From: a virus
Virus record (IMG/VR): IMGVR_UViG_3300027973_000262
Coordinates: 1 to 20,566 of that record
Length of the DNA stretch: 20,566 nucleotides
Direction: 5' to 3' (one strand)
Positions within the stretch are counted from its first letter, which is position 1. Every line of letters starts with the position of its first letter. This document shows, in pieces, positions 629 to 15,590 of the stretch. The position numbers and the translations under genes are program-made. The notes beneath the pieces are model-generated. The model worked only from the letters and a program-made list of their open reading frames with translations. It had not been told where the DNA came from and did not search any database.

Positions 629-1282
629 TTACACTGATAGGTTGGAGACAAACGACAGTGTAACGATGGCCGACGGTACTGCTGGCCTGGTTGGGGAAGT
701 GCCTGCCGGATACTGCTCAATCGTCACGCCGACATCAGTAGGCCGCCACATGATTTCCGCATAGTCGTTTGCGTTAAGGTTGACAAAGAAGTTCATTGCG
801 GCAATTATGTGGAACGGGTCGCCAACGCCTTTTCTTGGTGCAAACCCAAACCTTGAGTTCGACTTGTCAATGTTTGTTCCATTCTTTCTGAACCAAACGT
901 CAACGTCTTGGGATGAATTTGTCGTGTTCGTAAACTGGATGGAAAACTGCACGTTGTAGATTCCCGACTGAGATACGTTTAGTCTGGATGAATTTGAGAG
1001 AGTGACGCCGTTGCTGAAGTCGGTAGTGTCAAACGTGATGGCATAGGCCGTTGTGGTGTTAGCCGCCACCTGGTCTGTGGAGTCCTGGAACGCGCCATAT
1101 GGAGCGTTTAGGTACTTGCCTCCACGCGGCCCGAATAACGCTCCCAGGGCGCTTGTGATGCGGTTGGCGTAGATGCCTATGTTGCTGAGTGTTTGGCTGA
1201 AGTACAGGCGATCATATGTATCGCCAGGACTGCCGAGATTCGGCTGCGCTGGCGTTGTGATCTGGCCGCTGTAGTCGGTCAT
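629..1282 (-). CDS. Beta-sandwich virion protein (C1q/TNF-like fold suspected)
   Basis: This 217-aa protein has an N-terminal segment of about 60 residues with a helix (SQTLSNIGIYANRITSALGA). It is followed by a beta-rich C-terminal domain starting near GAFQDSTDQ, with alternating strands such as YNVQFSIQFTN, VDVWFRKNG, MNFFVNLNANDYAEIMWR and IVTLSFV. That strand order and the wording 'vFrknG' and 'v.L.aNDyvei.w' are typical of jelly-roll C1q/TNF-like domains on phage fibres and spikes, which bind receptors or trimerise. No catalytic motif is visible. The ATG overlaps the stop of the upstream endopeptidase gene by 4 nt, so translation is probably coupled. The structural role is inferred from fold-like features and from position next to the nozzle-like gene; the exact function is unknown. 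Confidence 0.65.
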   Translation of the reverse strand: MTDYSGQITTPAQPNLGSPGDTYDRLYFSQTLSNIGIYANRITSALGALFGPRGGKYLNAPYGAFQDSTDQVAANTTTAYAITFDTTDFSNGVTLSNSSRLNVSQSGIYNVQFSIQFTNTTNSSQDVDVWFRKNGTNIDKSNSRFGFAPRKGVGDPFHIIAAMNFFVNLNANDYAEIMWRPTDVGVTIEQYPAGTSPTRPAVPSAIVTLSFVSNLSV

Positions 1283-1617
1283 ATGTTCCGTTCAAAGTGC
1301 GGACAGTCTAGCAACGATTTGAAGTTACCACCCCACCGATTCTTAGGATGCAGACTCTCCCAGTACGCGCCAACCGGAGCCAGGATAGCTTTGTCCCAGA
1401 TGATTTTCCCATCCTTGAAGAAGTTCAAGTCCATCGCGCACCTCTTTAGGTGGATGGAGTTCATGGTCTTAGACCGGCCTGTCTTGACGTAGATAGCCTG
1501 CTGCTCAGGTGTACGCGCCAACTCGCCACCAGTGACCATAAATCCCTGCTCTGTGGCGTGCTGGATCAGCTTGCACATATCCAGCAGGAATGCCGCTTGC
1601 TCTTGACTTAGGCTCAT
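1279..1617 (-). CDS. Endolysin, M15-type peptidoglycan endopeptidase (L-Ala-D-Glu or D-Ala-D-Ala peptidase-like)
   Basis: This 112-aa protein has the zinc peptidase signature of the M15 (VanY/T5 endolysin) family. SIHLKRCAMDL places His56 and Asp63 as two zinc ligands, and CPHFE near the end places His107 as the third with Glu109 next to it. The upstream RTPEQQAIYVKTGRSKT segment is the usual substrate-side loop before the first His. The enzyme would cut peptide cross-links or stems in peptidoglycan after holin action. The length is normal for a single-domain M15C-type lysin, and there is no signal peptide or cell-wall-binding domain. It lies between a 3TM holin (4-nt overlap upstream) and a virion gene (4-nt overlap downstream), which supports a lysis role. 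Which bond it cuts cannot be read from the sequence. Confidence 0.85.
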   Translation of the reverse strand: MSLSQEQAAFLLDMCKLIQHATEQGFMVTGGELARTPEQQAIYVKTGRSKTMNSIHLKRCAMDLNFFKDGKIIWDKAILAPVGAYWESLHPKNRWGGNFKSLLDCPHFERNI

Positions 1618-2126
1618 TTTGCGCTCCTCATTTCTGCCAGCTTCTCTACCGTTCGGCCACCAAAGTAAGCGCCCATTATCAGCATCCCCCAGTTACCCAG
1701 CAGGGTCACATAGGACTCATTGGCGTTGAGGCCGTAGGCACTCATCATGGCGAACAGGAAGTACCCCATGAAGATAGCGATCAGGCTCATTGGCCGAATG
1801 TTCTTTGAGAGCCATGAATCCGAGTTCATGTCTGCCTGCCAGCGGTCTGTCACGTTATCCGCATCACTCTGTGCGGCTTTGGCAAACAATTCCAACTCGG
1901 CCATCTCCAGCTTGGCCTTCTCAATGCCCAGTTCAATCAAGCGCTCCTCGTGGTCGTACTGCAACTCGCGCAGCTTCTCAACGTCGGCCGGCGTAGGGTT
2001 GTCAGGGATCTTCACGCCAAGCGTGTTCTCAACCACCTCCTTGCCTTTGGCCTGGATAGCGGAGGACAGCAGCCCCAATCCGCTTTCAGCAAGTGTGCCG
2101 AGTAGTGCGCCGAGTATTGGAATCAT
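1614..2126 (-). CDS. Holin of the 3TM superfamily (gene-transfer-agent/phage release type)
   Basis: This 170-aa protein starts with a hydrophobic helix (ILGALLGTLAESGLGLLSSAI). A charged coiled coil follows (about 55-95, ELQYDHEERLIELGIEKAK). The C-terminal third holds two hydrophobic segments, SLIAIFMGYFLFAMMSAYG and VTLLGNWGMLIMGAYFGG, ending in RTVEKLAEM. This arrangement, including W..D..S.LSKN.RP before the first C-terminal TM, matches the 3TM holin family (PF11351 as I recall it), which perforates the inner membrane so the endolysin can reach the wall. The immediate downstream gene is the M15 lysin, with a 4-nt overlap. The start overlaps the upstream stop as TAATG, implying coupling. 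Confidence 0.85.
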   Translation of the reverse strand: MIPILGALLGTLAESGLGLLSSAIQAKGKEVVENTLGVKIPDNPTPADVEKLRELQYDHEERLIELGIEKAKLEMAELELFAKAAQSDADNVTDRWQADMNSDSWLSKNIRPMSLIAIFMGYFLFAMMSAYGLNANESYVTLLGNWGMLIMGAYFGGRTVEKLAEMRSAK

Positions 2127-2616
2127 TAGAGACCTCTGTTAGTGATGATATGAAATAACGCGCCAACTAGCGGCACAACGATAGCGGATGCGCCGGAAAT
2201 CCAGAGTGTGTTCATAATGATTGCCACTTTCACTTCCTTGTCCTTCTGCTTTCTTTCCGACTCTTCTCTTTCAAGTGTGTTGCGCTCCTTAATCATCCTG
2301 GTGCGCTCTGCCATCATCTCTTCCCAGACCGGAGCATTGCCACTATAGAAGAGGATGTCCTTCAGTTCCTTCTCATGCTCTCTCAGTGCCTTTGACGCCA
2401 GTGCGATCTGGAGAGCCTCAGAACTGATCTGTGCATTCGTCTTTCCTATTGACGCAATCCTGGCCTTGCTGCTTGCTAGATGAACCGTGTCTGCCGCTTG
2501 ATAGAAACTGCTGAATTCTTTATATAGGCCGTGTATATCTTTACCAAGGGCTACTGCTTTTTTATGCCAGCCACCGCACCCTGGGCAATAGCAAACGCGG
2601 TGAAAGGATCAATCAC
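2126..2616 (-). CDS. Membrane-anchored coiled-coil protein split by a -1 frameshift (163-aa product; 21-aa product without shifting)
   Basis: Frame 0 starts at the GTG at 2616-2614, which overlaps the stop of the preceding ORF as GTGA. It encodes VIDPFTAFAIAQGAVAGIKK, then Q and a TAG at 2553-2551. The -1 frame is open across this point and continues as AVALGKDIHGLYKEFSSFY, followed by a long helical region and a C-terminal membrane segment (WISGASAIVVPLVGALFHI), ending at 2126. The two parts join naturally at the run of six A residues (coding strand). A single -1 slip gives one 163-aa protein. From memory, related aquatic phage proteins are continuous through this point. The 63-aa ORF from the internal ATG at 2317 is only the C-terminal end. 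It sits directly upstream of the holin, so a lysis-accessory or membrane role is likely but unproven. Frameshift versus base-call error is open. Confidence 0.6.
2557..2563 (-). promoter_or_regulatory. Candidate -1 ribosomal frameshift site, A AAA AAG
   Basis: Read on the coding strand, the codons are ATA AAA AAG CAG TAG, so the heptamer A-AAA-AAG is in the correct phase for a tandem -1 slip (X XXY YYZ). This is the same heptamer used in E. coli dnaX. The zero frame stops two codons later. The -1 frame continues for another 143 residues of protein-like sequence. I see no strong downstream stem-loop or well-placed upstream Shine-Dalgarno stimulator, so a missing A in the assembly is the main alternative. 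Confidence 0.5.
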
Positions 2617-2777
2617 TTCTTGTTCACAACCGCCCACCGGCAGATGCGTCCATCTTTGTCCATGAATTCATTTGCTCTAAGCATTTTGTCCTCATCTTTC
2701 TTAGGGATACGACAAACCAAAACAGTCTTTGTCTCAGTGTTCGGCCAGGGGCTTTCCGCTGAGACAATCTGATCCAT
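2613..2777 (-). CDS. Small conserved-looking phage protein, 54 aa
   Basis: The ATG at 2777-2775 shares its A with the TGA of the upstream gene (TGATG). The ORF ends at the TGA at 2615-2613, which itself overlaps the GTG of the next gene. The product begins MDQIVSAESPWPNTETKTV, continues with VCRIPKKDEDKML, and ends GRICRWAVVNKK. It has two cysteines and is mixed in charge, with no membrane segment or recognisable motif. The overlapped start and stop on both sides are the main evidence that it is translated; it would otherwise be missed because of its length. Function is unknown. Its place between two membrane proteins upstream of the holin suggests membership of the lysis cassette. Confidence 0.6.
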   Translation of the reverse strand: MDQIVSAESPWPNTETKTVLVCRIPKKDEDKMLRANEFMDKDGRICRWAVVNKK

Positions 2778-3010
2778 CACTTGTCGGCCTTGTTCTCTAG
2801 CTTGTCAAAGATGCGCTCCAGGGTCGCGTCAATCTTGTCTAGGCGGCTCTCAATATCTGCCTTGCTGACGTAGTGCTTTGGCAAGTCAATCTCAATCGCC
2901 TTGATGTCTGCTTTCAGCGCCTTGACAGAGTCCCATATCTCTTTACACCACCAGCCAACAGCGACCAGGATTGCGCCACCCACGAAATTAAATAATGACT
3001 GGAATTCCAT
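2777..3010 (-). CDS. Small membrane protein with N-terminal TM and coiled-coil tail
   Basis: This 77-aa protein has one hydrophobic segment near the N-terminus (LFNFVGGAILVAVGWW). After it come an amphipathic heptad-like helix (IWDSVKALKADIKAIEIDL), the segment PKHYVSKADIESRLDKI and a second helix LERIFDKLENK. The layout resembles small XhlA-like or spanin-like phage lysis accessory proteins: a membrane anchor with a cytoplasmic or periplasmic coiled coil. I recognise the general type from many phages but know no assigned function. The start codon directly abuts the TAA of the fibre gene (TAAATG), and its own stop overlaps the next start, so it is part of the same transcript. A lysis role is inferred from the holin and endolysin just downstream. 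Confidence 0.7.
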   Translation of the reverse strand: MEFQSLFNFVGGAILVAVGWWCKEIWDSVKALKADIKAIEIDLPKHYVSKADIESRLDKIDATLERIFDKLENKADK

Positions 3011-4108
3011 TTATGCCTCCAATGCTGCGATACGGGCGGTCAGGGAAGTGATGAGGGCTTGCTGTTCTTGGATGGCTTTTAACATCATGGGAACAAACAC
3101 GCTGTACTTTACGGCTTTAATTCCTTCTCCATCTGTTTCAATCATTCCTGGGAAAACTGTTTCTAATTCCTGAGCGACTACACCAATCTGTTTGGTTTTG
3201 TTTACATCGTCTTTAAGGTTGTAATTGCGAACCCTGACTTGCATCAAGCCATCTAGTTTTGGCGTAGCGTCAACAATGTTTTCTTTAAGACTTATGTCAG
3301 ACAAAGAACCATAGCTATTATTTGCATTGAGCAAATTGCCATTAGGCCGAATCAACATTTTGAGTGTAGTGTTGTTATCAAACACCGTAAAAGCGTTGTA
3401 TTCAGTAGTTGCCCCAGACCGAGCGCAGCTTATTTCAACAATGTTGTTTACATAACTTGCGCTTGAGGCGTAAAACCTTACTGCACTTGAGCCTGTATCT
3501 GATTGCGTAACACCAAATTTTTCTGTTGATGTTTGAGCAGTTTGCCCCACCAGCACGTTGCCGCTGGAGTCGATACGCATAGCCTCCGCGCCGCCTTCAG
3601 CAAAAGCAATGGTGTCAGCGGCGGGGAAGAAGATTCCGGTGTTGGTGTCGCCTGATGTAGTGATGGCTGGGGCTGCTGCCGTTCCAGCTTGTACCGTTGT
3701 AACACCTGTAGCCGACAAAGTAGTAAATGCGCCAGTAGACGGTGTAGTTGCTCCTACAGTGCCGTTCATTACCGCCCCCGTCAGCGTCTTGTTTGTCAGC
3801 GTGTCGGTGGTGGCCCTACCAACCAGGGTATCTGTAGCAGCGGGCAGCGTAAGAGTTGTAGTGCCAGCAACAGCAGTGGCCTGCAATGTTGTAGTGCCTG
3901 ATGTAGACCCTGCAAACTTAGTCGTACCAGCAAGCGTGATTGTCTTGCCAGTGCCAATGTTCAAACCTACGCTGGTTCCATTACCAGCCGCAGCAAACAC
4001 CGCATCAACCGAGTCTAGGTCGGTGTTGATCTTTGTCCCCCAGGTGTCAGTGCTTGCGCCTACCTCGGGCTTGGTAAGGAGTAGGTTGGTGGTGGTGGTA
4101 TCAGCCAT
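3011..4108 (-). CDS. Tail fibre/spike with C-terminal S74 intramolecular chaperone domain
   Basis: This 365-aa protein starts with a virion-attachment-like segment ([20 protein letters not shown]). A low-complexity Thr/Ala/Gly-rich shaft of short beta strands follows (about 45-150), then a [20 protein letters not shown] and [13 protein letters not shown] segment typical of phage fibres. From about residue 266 comes a peptidase S74 domain, SDISLKENI, with [12 protein letters not shown] and [17 protein letters not shown]. In this family the chaperone trimerises the fibre and then cuts itself off; here Ser270 and Lys275 have the spacing of the known Ser-Lys dyad. The C-terminal helix ([15 protein letters not shown]) is the usual trimerising coil. 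It is the last fibre gene before the lysis cassette. The mature fibre would end near residue 269. Confidence 0.9.
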
Positions 4109-5540: not shown

Positions 5541-6497
5541 TTAGAATGTAATTGTTCCGCTACCAGTAAAAGTATAAATTCTGTAACCGCCGGAAGTTGT
5601 TATGGTTGGCGAACCTGTAGTCGCTGCGGCTGCGGAAAAAGTATCAGGGTATCTAATAATTACAACGCCTGATCCACCAGCGCCACCAGTCAAAACTGTC
5701 TCAAATCCACCAGCACCACCACCACCTGATCCAGAATTTGCTGAACCAGCAGTTGCGGCAGATGCTGGATTCCCTGATCCTCCATTACCTCCACCAGCAG
5801 CGCCTACCCCATTAGAACCAGAAGAGTTTGCGCCACCGCCACCACCACCAGCATAAGTTACTGAAGAACCTGACAAAGAAGAAGCAGTTCCAGCGCCGCC
5901 ACTTCCTCCAGCACTGGTCGAGGCACTAGTGCCAACAGCACTAGAGCCACCACCACCGCCAGCATTAGCGCCGTTGTTACCATTGCCACCAGCAAATCCT
6001 TGCCCTGATGTACCAGAACCTCCTGTACCGCCGCCGCCTGAGTCAGTACCGCCACCACCACCGCCTGATCCACCACTAGAGCCATTTAAGGATGCATTTG
6101 GGGCATTGGGTGGAACGCCTTGTGCGCCGCCTCCACCACCAGTTGATGTGATGCTGTCAAAAACAGAATTGCTACCATTTGCGCCGCGTGTTTGAGACAC
6201 GCTCGTGCCTCCAGCACCTCCAGCACCTACAGTAACGGTTAATGCAACACCTCCTGTAATGGAAAATCCAGTGGCAGTCTTAAAGCCACCAGCACCACCG
6301 CCGCCACCAGTATTTTTACCGCCACCACCACCGCCACCGGCAATTACCAGGTAATCGACTGTAGCTGGTATGTAACCAGGCCATGCACTAGCTTGCCTGG
6401 CTTGCATCTGTTCTGTCAAGGTCCATTTGCCAATAGCGTTTGCTGATGAAGTAGGAGCCGCTGTAGCAGACCTAATGCTGCCCTTGAACCGATTCAT
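5541..6497 (-). CDS. Glycine-rich tail fibre/adhesin
   Basis: This 318-aa protein has a short N-terminal part with a YIPATVDYLVIAGGGGGGG entry strand. A very long glycine-rich region follows (about 53-270) made of GGGGGG and GGxGG runs broken by short Ser/Thr/Ala/Asn turns. It ends in the strand GGAGGSGVVIIRYPDTF and a C-terminal SGGYRIYTFTGSGTITF. The 'VDYLVIAGGGGGG ... GVVIIRYP ... YRIYTFTGSGTITF' frame is a recognised phage glycine-rich domain. It is comparable in composition to the polyglycine-helix sandwich of T4-like gp38 adhesins, which bind host receptors. A receptor-binding role is inferred from composition and from its place in the fibre cassette. Start and upstream stop overlap (TAATG). 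Confidence 0.8.
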   Translation of the reverse strand: MNRFKGSIRSATAAPTSSANAIGKWTLTEQMQARQASAWPGYIPATVDYLVIAGGGGGGGKNTGGGGGAGGFKTATGFSITGGVALTVTVGAGGAGGTSVSQTRGANGSNSVFDSITSTGGGGGAQGVPPNAPNASLNGSSGGSGGGGGGTDSGGGGTGGSGTSGQGFAGGNGNNGANAGGGGGSSAVGTSASTSAGGSGGAGTASSLSGSSVTYAGGGGGGANSSGSNGVGAAGGGNGGSGNPASAATAGSANSGSGGGGAGGFETVLTGGAGGSGVVIIRYPDTFSAAAATTGSPTITTSGGYRIYTFTGSGTITF

Positions 6498-14214: not shown

Positions 14215-14907
14215 TCAAGCGTTAAACCATTGTTGAACATATTTTGGCCGATATTTCATAAGCCAGGGCATCGCCTGGTGGGTTAATGCGTTGGCGTCCA
14301 CGCCAACAGTCTGGCTGCCGACGTGGTGGACATAGGATGCGCTTACAAAATTCTTGTACCCGAGTGCCTCTAAGTCAGCGCATTGCACGTCATCTGAGAA
14401 CCAGTTCAGTGGGGGGAATGGGCATTGGGCAAAGGCATCTGCACAAATCCAGGCAAATATGGGCGAGATCACGTCTGTCTGCCGAATCTTCGACTCGGAC
14501 GTGAACCGGCACATATCGATGGCCTCACCCTCCGGATTCCAGCGAATATTCTGCACCTCACGCGCAGAATCACACCTAGAGGCCACCCACCCAGGGTTCA
14601 GACTCAGGTCGCTGATGATGTCCACGTCATCCATCAGGACGCGGTAGCTGGTGGGCGTCAGGACAATATCGTCATTCGCCACCACGACAGAGTCGAAGTC
14701 CTTGAGTGCGCAGTTGATGATGTGGTTGTAGTCATCGCCGAAGTTGCTGGGCTGACCGACCACCTTCACGTCGGCATCAAAACGCTCCAGGACTGACGCC
14801 GGACCGCGCAAGTACACGGGAATCTCGGGGCAATACTCGCGGATAGACGCCAGCATCACCGCCAGGTTTTTGCCGTGGACGGTGCTGATTGCAATGGGGC
14901 TTATCAC
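14215..14907 (-). CDS. Glycosyltransferase-like protein A (GT-A, tandem paralogue)
   Basis: This 230-aa protein opens with MISPIAISTVHGKNLAVML, a nucleotide-binding beta-alpha unit. VVVANDDIVLTPTSYRVLMDDV carries an NDD metal-type motif at 78-80. FSDDVQCADLEALGY follows at about 170, and SYVHHVGSQT near the C-terminus (His194, His195). These correspond to the DxD, the acceptor/base acidic residues and the late His of GT-A enzymes. The neighbour at 14904-15590 shares all three blocks. The start is GTG in a GTGA overlap with that gene. It probably transfers a sugar; substrate unknown. A sampled 60-base stretch (14701-14760) has 55% G+C, like the surrounding structural genes. Confidence 0.75.
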   Translation of the reverse strand: MISPIAISTVHGKNLAVMLASIREYCPEIPVYLRGPASVLERFDADVKVVGQPSNFGDDYNHIINCALKDFDSVVVANDDIVLTPTSYRVLMDDVDIISDLSLNPGWVASRCDSAREVQNIRWNPEGEAIDMCRFTSESKIRQTDVISPIFAWICADAFAQCPFPPLNWFSDDVQCADLEALGYKNFVSASYVHHVGSQTVGVDANALTHQAMPWLMKYRPKYVQQWFNA

Positions 14908-15590
14908 TTCTTCCCTCCAAAGTACCTAGCGTGCATATCGGGCCTATTTTCGCGCAACCATGCCTCTGAATCCTGTTTGCACTTTTTGAAGTCATATCCA
15001 AATGTTTGCGAGCCAACATGGTGGAAATATGCGCGTGACACAAACAATCTAGACTCGTTTTTCAAATATTCCTCGCACTGTACATCATCAGAAAACCAGT
15101 CTATTGGCGCAATATCAACCCATGTTGACTTCTGACACCAGGCAAAAATTCCAGCCAGATAATCTGTTTCGACAATAAAGTTTTCGCTCTCATATGCAAG
15201 AGAACTTAGGCTGCCAGAACCAGTGCGAATATTTTGGTTTCCCTTTGCGTAGTTGGTCCTTCCTGCCACAAGACCAATCTTGTAGCCCATTGACTTTATG
15301 TGGCTCACGTCATCCATCAAGACGCTGTATGTGCTTGGGTTAAGGACTACATCGTCATCAATAGACACAAACTCCTCATGGGTCTCAAATATCTTGTGGG
15401 CCATGAAGTTATGTGCAGCGCCTCCAGTTTCATATGTGTGGACAAAGTGATGAACTTTGTGCTTTGGTAGAGACTGCTTGTTTGGGCTGGTTATGAAAAC
15501 CTCAACATCATCAGGCACATACAACTCAATTGACTTGAGTAGCACCGGCAGGCACTTCTCATTTTTTGAGCATATTCCGATTGGCGTCAC
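14904..15590 (-). CDS. Glycosyltransferase-like protein B (GT-A, tandem paralogue)
   Basis: This 228-aa protein has the same order of blocks as its downstream neighbour: TPIGICSKNEKCLPVLL, then SIDDDVVLNPSTYSVLMDDV with DDD at 78-80, DWFSDDVQCEEYL at about 164-176 and AYFHHVGSQT at 188-196. The spacing of the blocks is nearly identical to paralogue A, so the pair arose by duplication or both were acquired together. Sequence between the blocks has diverged strongly. It is more AT-rich (43% G+C in 15001-15060, counted by hand) than paralogue A, suggesting separate acquisition or a different history. The GTG start overlaps the upstream stop as GTGA. A sugar-transfer role is inferred; the acceptor is unknown. 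Confidence 0.75.
   Translation of the reverse strand: MTPIGICSKNEKCLPVLLKSIELYVPDDVEVFITSPNKQSLPKHKVHHFVHTYETGGAAHNFMAHKIFETHEEFVSIDDDVVLNPSTYSVLMDDVSHIKSMGYKIGLVAGRTNYAKGNQNIRTGSGSLSSLAYESENFIVETDYLAGIFAWCQKSTWVDIAPIDWFSDDVQCEEYLKNESRLFVSRAYFHHVGSQTFGYDFKKCKQDSEAWLRENRPDMHARYFGGKK

Follow-up and report, generated by a model that had tools for sequence, protein, structure and literature searches.

The window analysed here is the whole of a 20,566-base virus record that encodes an SU10-type portal and a major capsid protein. On its minus strand, the tail-fibre gene is followed by a chain of overlapping genes consisting of a 77-aa ORF, a 54-aa ORF, the recoded gene that is the subject of this study, a holin and an M15 endolysin (Table 1). 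Family searches gave no significant match for the 54-aa ORF, and an Rfam search of positions 2000-3100 gave no match. Elsewhere in the window we noted a C-terminal Peptidase_S74 chaperone domain in the tail-fibre protein (3011-4108), a strongly glycine-rich 318-aa protein in the tail region (5541-6497), and two adjacent, overlapping ORFs of ~230 aa (14215-14907 and 14904-15590) that appear alike by eye and look like glycosyltransferases.

Table 1. Features of the lysis cassette and of the recoded gene (window coordinates)
Feature	Position	Strand	Remarks
Membrane protein, 77 aa, N-terminal hydrophobic segment	2777..3010	-	First cassette gene; phrog_462 E=8.6e-12
54-aa ORF	2613..2777	-	TGA stop overlaps GTG start of recoded gene
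0-frame ORF, 21 aa, MIDPFTAFAIAQGAVAGIKKQ	2551..2616	-	GTG start, TAG stop
Slippery heptamer A_AAA_AAG (dnaX type)	2557..2563	-	C always next
-1 frame continuation (KKAVALGKD...), fusion residues 19-163	2126..2563	-	Codon periodicity, family homology; no conserved internal start
Putative stimulatory helix, 5' arm	2544..2551	-	After 5-nt spacer 2556-2552
Putative stimulatory helix, 3' arm, bulged base 2496	2493..2501	-	RNAalifold, covariation
C-terminal transmembrane segment, fusion residues ~137-158	2144..2209	-	Hydropathy maximum 2.06 over 19 residues
Holin, 170 aa, ATG at 2126	1614..2126	-	phrog_3427 E=1e-13
Endolysin, M15 peptidase	1279..1617	-	PF13539 above curated cut-off; phrog_465 endolysin

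The recoded gene begins with a GTG codon at 2616-2614 (minus strand), and the first 20 residues of its 21-aa 0-frame ORF are the N-terminus of the family protein described below. The sequence ATA-AAA-AAG-CAG-TAG, preceded by GGC, lies at 2565-2551 and places the 0-frame stop two codons past the heptamer. The TAA that ends the -1 frame (2128-2126) overlaps the ATG of the holin gene (TAATG). Joined at the heptamer, the two frames give a fusion of 163 aa (20 + 143) with a C-terminal hydrophobic segment. AAAAAAG occurs once on the minus strand across all 20,566 bases. The anatomy given in the first-pass annotation (GTG at 2616, stop at 2553-2551, heptamer and open -1 frame) was exact to the base.

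Homologues of the fusion are encoded in one frame. The profile phrog_32327 matched the fusion with 43.7 bits (E=4.9e-11; residues 1-138 to profile positions 1-130 of 152), as compared with 25.3 bits for the -1 part alone, and the match covers the N-terminus and spans the junction. Pfam gave no match above cut-off for the fusion. Homologues were found in Roseobacter phages, Puniceispirillum phage HMO-2011, Limnohabitans phage DC31, Pelagibacter phage Mosig and uncultured phages, and they show no gap at the junction when aligned to the 163-aa fusion, with most alignments starting at residue 1. The recoded gene thus resembles phrog_32327 over nearly its full length and, in several phages, in its lysis-cassette position. 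It differs in being split, whereas the family members checked outside the window's clade, including many IMG/VR contigs, are single ORFs, nearly always of 147-163 aa. A census that combined an N-terminal motif scan, a homologue search and the loci found earlier yielded at least 181 unique starts. Among the matches listed, at least 59 were short ORFs, all with the heptamer, at least 112 were single-frame ORFs of 121-163 aa, at least 10 had no stop in the stretch read, and there was no third class. The nearest in-frame sisters (~61% identity) read ATT AAA AAA GCA or, as in L211, ATA AAA AAA GCA; they hold one more base in the A run, indicating that the clade lost one base. In a protein tree from which one exceptional sequence (L341, see below) was left out, the recoded sequences formed one group against the in-frame sisters with support of 100/95.

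The slippery site is highly conserved within the clade. Searching proteins with the -1 frame part gave, as the best 80 IMG/VR loci, relatives with 89-100% identity from dozens of metagenome data sets, and AT-AAAAAA-G is present in identical phase in 80/80 of them. With two further searches added, the unique related stretches with a readable site number 87 (one additional stretch is cut off at the site), and 86 of these keep ATAAAAAAG intact and in the required phase. The first-pass annotation had suggested aligning homologues for conservation of the heptamer and the frame break, and both are kept in these 86. The 81 unique full sequences show up to 30% divergence overall, reaching as much as 65% at third codon positions, and all 81 have a C directly 3' of the heptamer. 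The A run is exactly six in every recoded clade member and is never longer. In addition, the Ile codon before the two lysines is ATA in all recoded genes and rarely so in in-frame members with I-K-K (ATC in 12, ATT in 11, ATA in 2), suggesting that the heptamer itself is selected; judged from these alignments, it is conserved across divergent relatives beyond coding need. A looser pattern, ATAAAAAAGCNNTNGCNYTVGG, gave 12 new loci, 3 of which are recoded relatives; we rejected the other 9 as chance matches with no homology in their -1 frame. Neither a relative nor the recoded signature was found in the bacterial genomes searched, and a literature search of open papers, with subscription journals outside its coverage, found none describing this frameshift site.

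Codon periodicity changes from frame 0 to frame -1 exactly at the heptamer. In frame 0, ahead of the heptamer, variability at codon positions 1/2/3 was 0.04/0.02/0.37; in frame -1, past the heptamer, it was 0.03/0.00/0.27. Because wobble positions in the -1 frame coincide with second positions in frame 0, the tail of the 0-frame product changes freely, and beyond its first 20 residues the stub is, on this measure, not conserved. Of the 81 full sequences, 24 have a 21-aa stub and 57 a 46-aa stub. The stop two codons past the heptamer, correctly described for the window, is therefore not a general feature of the clade, and we find no case for the 21-residue peptide as a conserved product, as both the 0-frame tail and its stop vary freely.

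We also identified a candidate stimulatory structure. The helix found by RNAalifold has an energy of -9.3; of 500 alignments in which synonymous codon columns were permuted, 2 matched this value. In total, 97.4% of its cells are paired, a value not reached in any of 500 shuffles and far lower when the helix was slid by 1-3 columns. The pair 2549/2495 joins the wobble positions of two alanine codons. Core sequences have either C-G or U-A there without exception, three sequences of a divergent subclade have C-C, and there is no C-A or U-G anywhere; the covariation of this pair requires at least six changes on the tree. Strong covariation is limited to one helix pair, and single-sequence folding energies are ordinary. 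In the in-frame sisters the helix is broken rather than kept. One to three of its pairs are also broken in the divergent subclade (L149, L150, L303, L308 and L310), which may form a different hairpin at the same place. Overall, the downstream helix is a candidate that the comparative data support but do not prove. For an upstream Shine-Dalgarno-like stimulator, the duplex energy equalled that of the control and the sequence was not conserved; this element is optional, with an estimated 56% of IS elements having it (PMC5009743).

Taken together, the data make it highly probable that translation of the gene at 2616-2126 involves programmed -1 ribosomal frameshifting, which would give the only complete form of the protein. 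A_AAA_AAG, the natural shift site of E. coli dnaX, ranks with the most shift-prone sequences of that species, and a C on its 3' side is favourable for shifting (PMC5009743). Two lysyl-tRNAs on A_AAA_AAG would slip back to AAA_AAA, probably aided by the following C and by the putative RNA helix beyond the 5-nt spacer. The product of slipping ribosomes would be the 163-aa helical protein, anchored in the membrane by its C-terminus, for which related phages use a single frame. For ribosomes that stay in frame 0, translation would end at 21 residues (46 in other members), leaving a short N-terminal fragment that most likely has no function by itself. Slippage would thereby set the amount of the full-length protein and the number of ribosomes reaching the overlapping holin start; given that the stub is unconserved past its first 20 residues, slippage likely restricts how much full protein is made. 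This reading is built on features visible in the sequences, namely the break in the frame and how it is conserved, the family protein found intact elsewhere, and the stop/start overlap; from them we infer the slip on the ribosome, its efficiency and its effects on holin level or lysis timing. The first-pass proposal of a dnaX-type -1 slippage joining two halves of a protein before the holin is upheld in that conservation, switched periodicity, single-frame homologues and the putative helix agree.

The shift may have been selected for regulation or may only be tolerated. In the latter case, which overlaps in mechanism with programmed frameshifting and which we consider possible but unlikely, a one-base deletion was fixed by chance and leakage at the slippery run suffices, as in the class of corrective or 'savior' indel frameshifting (PMC5009743). 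The likeness to that class is clear: homologues are in one frame, slippage would compensate a one-base deletion, an additional base is present in relatives such as L211, and past the site the 0-frame product is unconserved. An in-frame version can also exist within the clade, as L341 illustrates. However, regaining an A is among the easiest of mutations, and there is a single in-frame case in 87 unique stretches. Unlike the corrective class, the arrangement persists throughout a divergent clade, its heptamer invariant and retained beyond coding need in the ATA Ile codon, and a putative helix with compensatory changes follows it.

The exception, L341 (contig IMGVR_UViG_3300013014_000081), groups with the divergent subclade and is nested in the recoded clade. 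It reads ATC AAA AAG GCC in frame (I-K-K-A, around 2430-2530), which is not a simple seven-A run, indicating that the clade can do without the slippery site. One base inserted after MIDPF (CCT TTT CGT) puts the usual ATG out of frame by one, and an in-frame TTG start that follows an upstream stop would avoid any shift. A pattern for this type of upstream +1 variant matched six contigs, of which L341's own was the only one recognised as family. Either the frame break was lost in L341 or its sequence contains an error. The CCT TTT CGT of this single case resembles UCC_UUU_CGU, reportedly the +1 shift site of influenza PA-X.

Slippage of RNA polymerase on the A run could instead supply the missing A in a fraction of the transcripts. 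One extra A in this A run restores the frame, and such slippage is documented in bacteria, in Buchnera and Shigella (reviewed in PMC5009743). We nevertheless consider it improbable, and programmed -1 frameshifting the better explanation, because the run is always exactly six A, shorter than the nine A or T of the bacterial example in PMC5009743, and never lengthens. The fixed phase, the A_AAA_AAG type and the putative helix at a 5-nt spacer likewise fit slippage on the ribosome. Much less probable still is a pair of separate genes, one for a short peptide and one for an internally started -1 frame protein. The first ATG, GTG or TTG of the window's -1 frame is an ATG at 2317, 82 codons in, which might serve, but in relatives the first such codon lies 54, 59, 66, 78 or 82 codons in; the C-terminal part thus lacks a conserved start. 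Moreover, the codons ahead of the first -1 frame start are conserved as protein, and homologues are one protein. Finally, the loss of an A that the first-pass annotation offered as an alternative stands as history, since the sisters have the extra base, but has practically no chance as a sequencing or assembly error, for which the homopolymer is the sole support: identical six-A runs with divergent flanks recur in contigs from dozens of data sets, and the same break in divergent relatives rules out random error.

Known phage -1 frameshifts lie mainly in tail chaperone and capsid genes. The tail chaperone G/GT and capsid cases likewise use -1 slippage in a late gene to make an extended form, an example being the Kuravirus MCP capsid frameshift at GGGAAAG (PMC9965538). 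In those genes the shift comes near the end of a functional 0-frame protein, whereas here it falls at codons 19-20 of 163, in a gene for a lysis-cassette membrane protein whose fused form is the normal protein of the family. A tail assembly chaperone frameshift, expected in the gene before the tape measure, was considered and rejected, the gene here being located between the tail-fibre gene and the holin. The site and E. coli dnaX are alike in heptamer and phase, and the putative helix here lies 3' of the site as in dnaX. Both dnaX products are functional subunits, unlike the 21-46 aa stub made in frame 0 here. In addition, dnaX has an upstream Shine-Dalgarno stimulator (PMC5009743), whereas no conserved one was found at this locus. 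Overall, this is very probably a known mechanism at a new location, a conserved -1 shift near the N-terminus of a lysis-cassette membrane protein.

The structure of the protein was approached through an AlphaFold model of the in-frame sister L114. The model is all-helical with a long C-terminal helix (mean pLDDT 76), and the transmembrane segment falls in helix 95-162. A BFVD structure search with this model gave confident matches that were all uncharacterised or unnamed phage proteins, and hence no function from the fold. A unimolecular spanin (N-terminal lipobox cysteine and C-terminal transmembrane segment) was rejected, as the fusion sequence has no cysteine. The family gene adjoins holin and endolysin genes in several phages, and this position suggests a role in lysis. 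Two unlike proteins, MIPILG... (170 aa) and MEWLKT... (164-165 aa), occupy the holin position after the recoded gene among L001, L003, L007, L011 and L014, and the recoded gene seems to outlive holin exchange. Some records with the recoded gene, L007, L066, L149 and L150 among them, have no SU10-type capsid gene (they are 26-38 kb and possibly fragments) while others have it; the gene may move between phage backbones.

In 70 of 75 recoded loci the -1 stop shares bases with a start codon of the following gene, an arrangement through which the shift would also feed the holin. The holin gene is, however, preceded by its own Shine-Dalgarno-like sequence, and stop/start overlaps are also seen in in-frame family members. 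That the frameshift is a lysis-timing device, its efficiency setting both the dose of a holin partner and the flow of ribosomes into the holin gene, is a doubtful proposition on present evidence; if true, charged lysine tRNA or the state of the ribosome during infection would feed the lysis clock. Gene callers will split or miss the recoded protein in these contigs. The in-frame sister families provide natural controls, and why a slippery step precedes the holin in these phages becomes a testable question.
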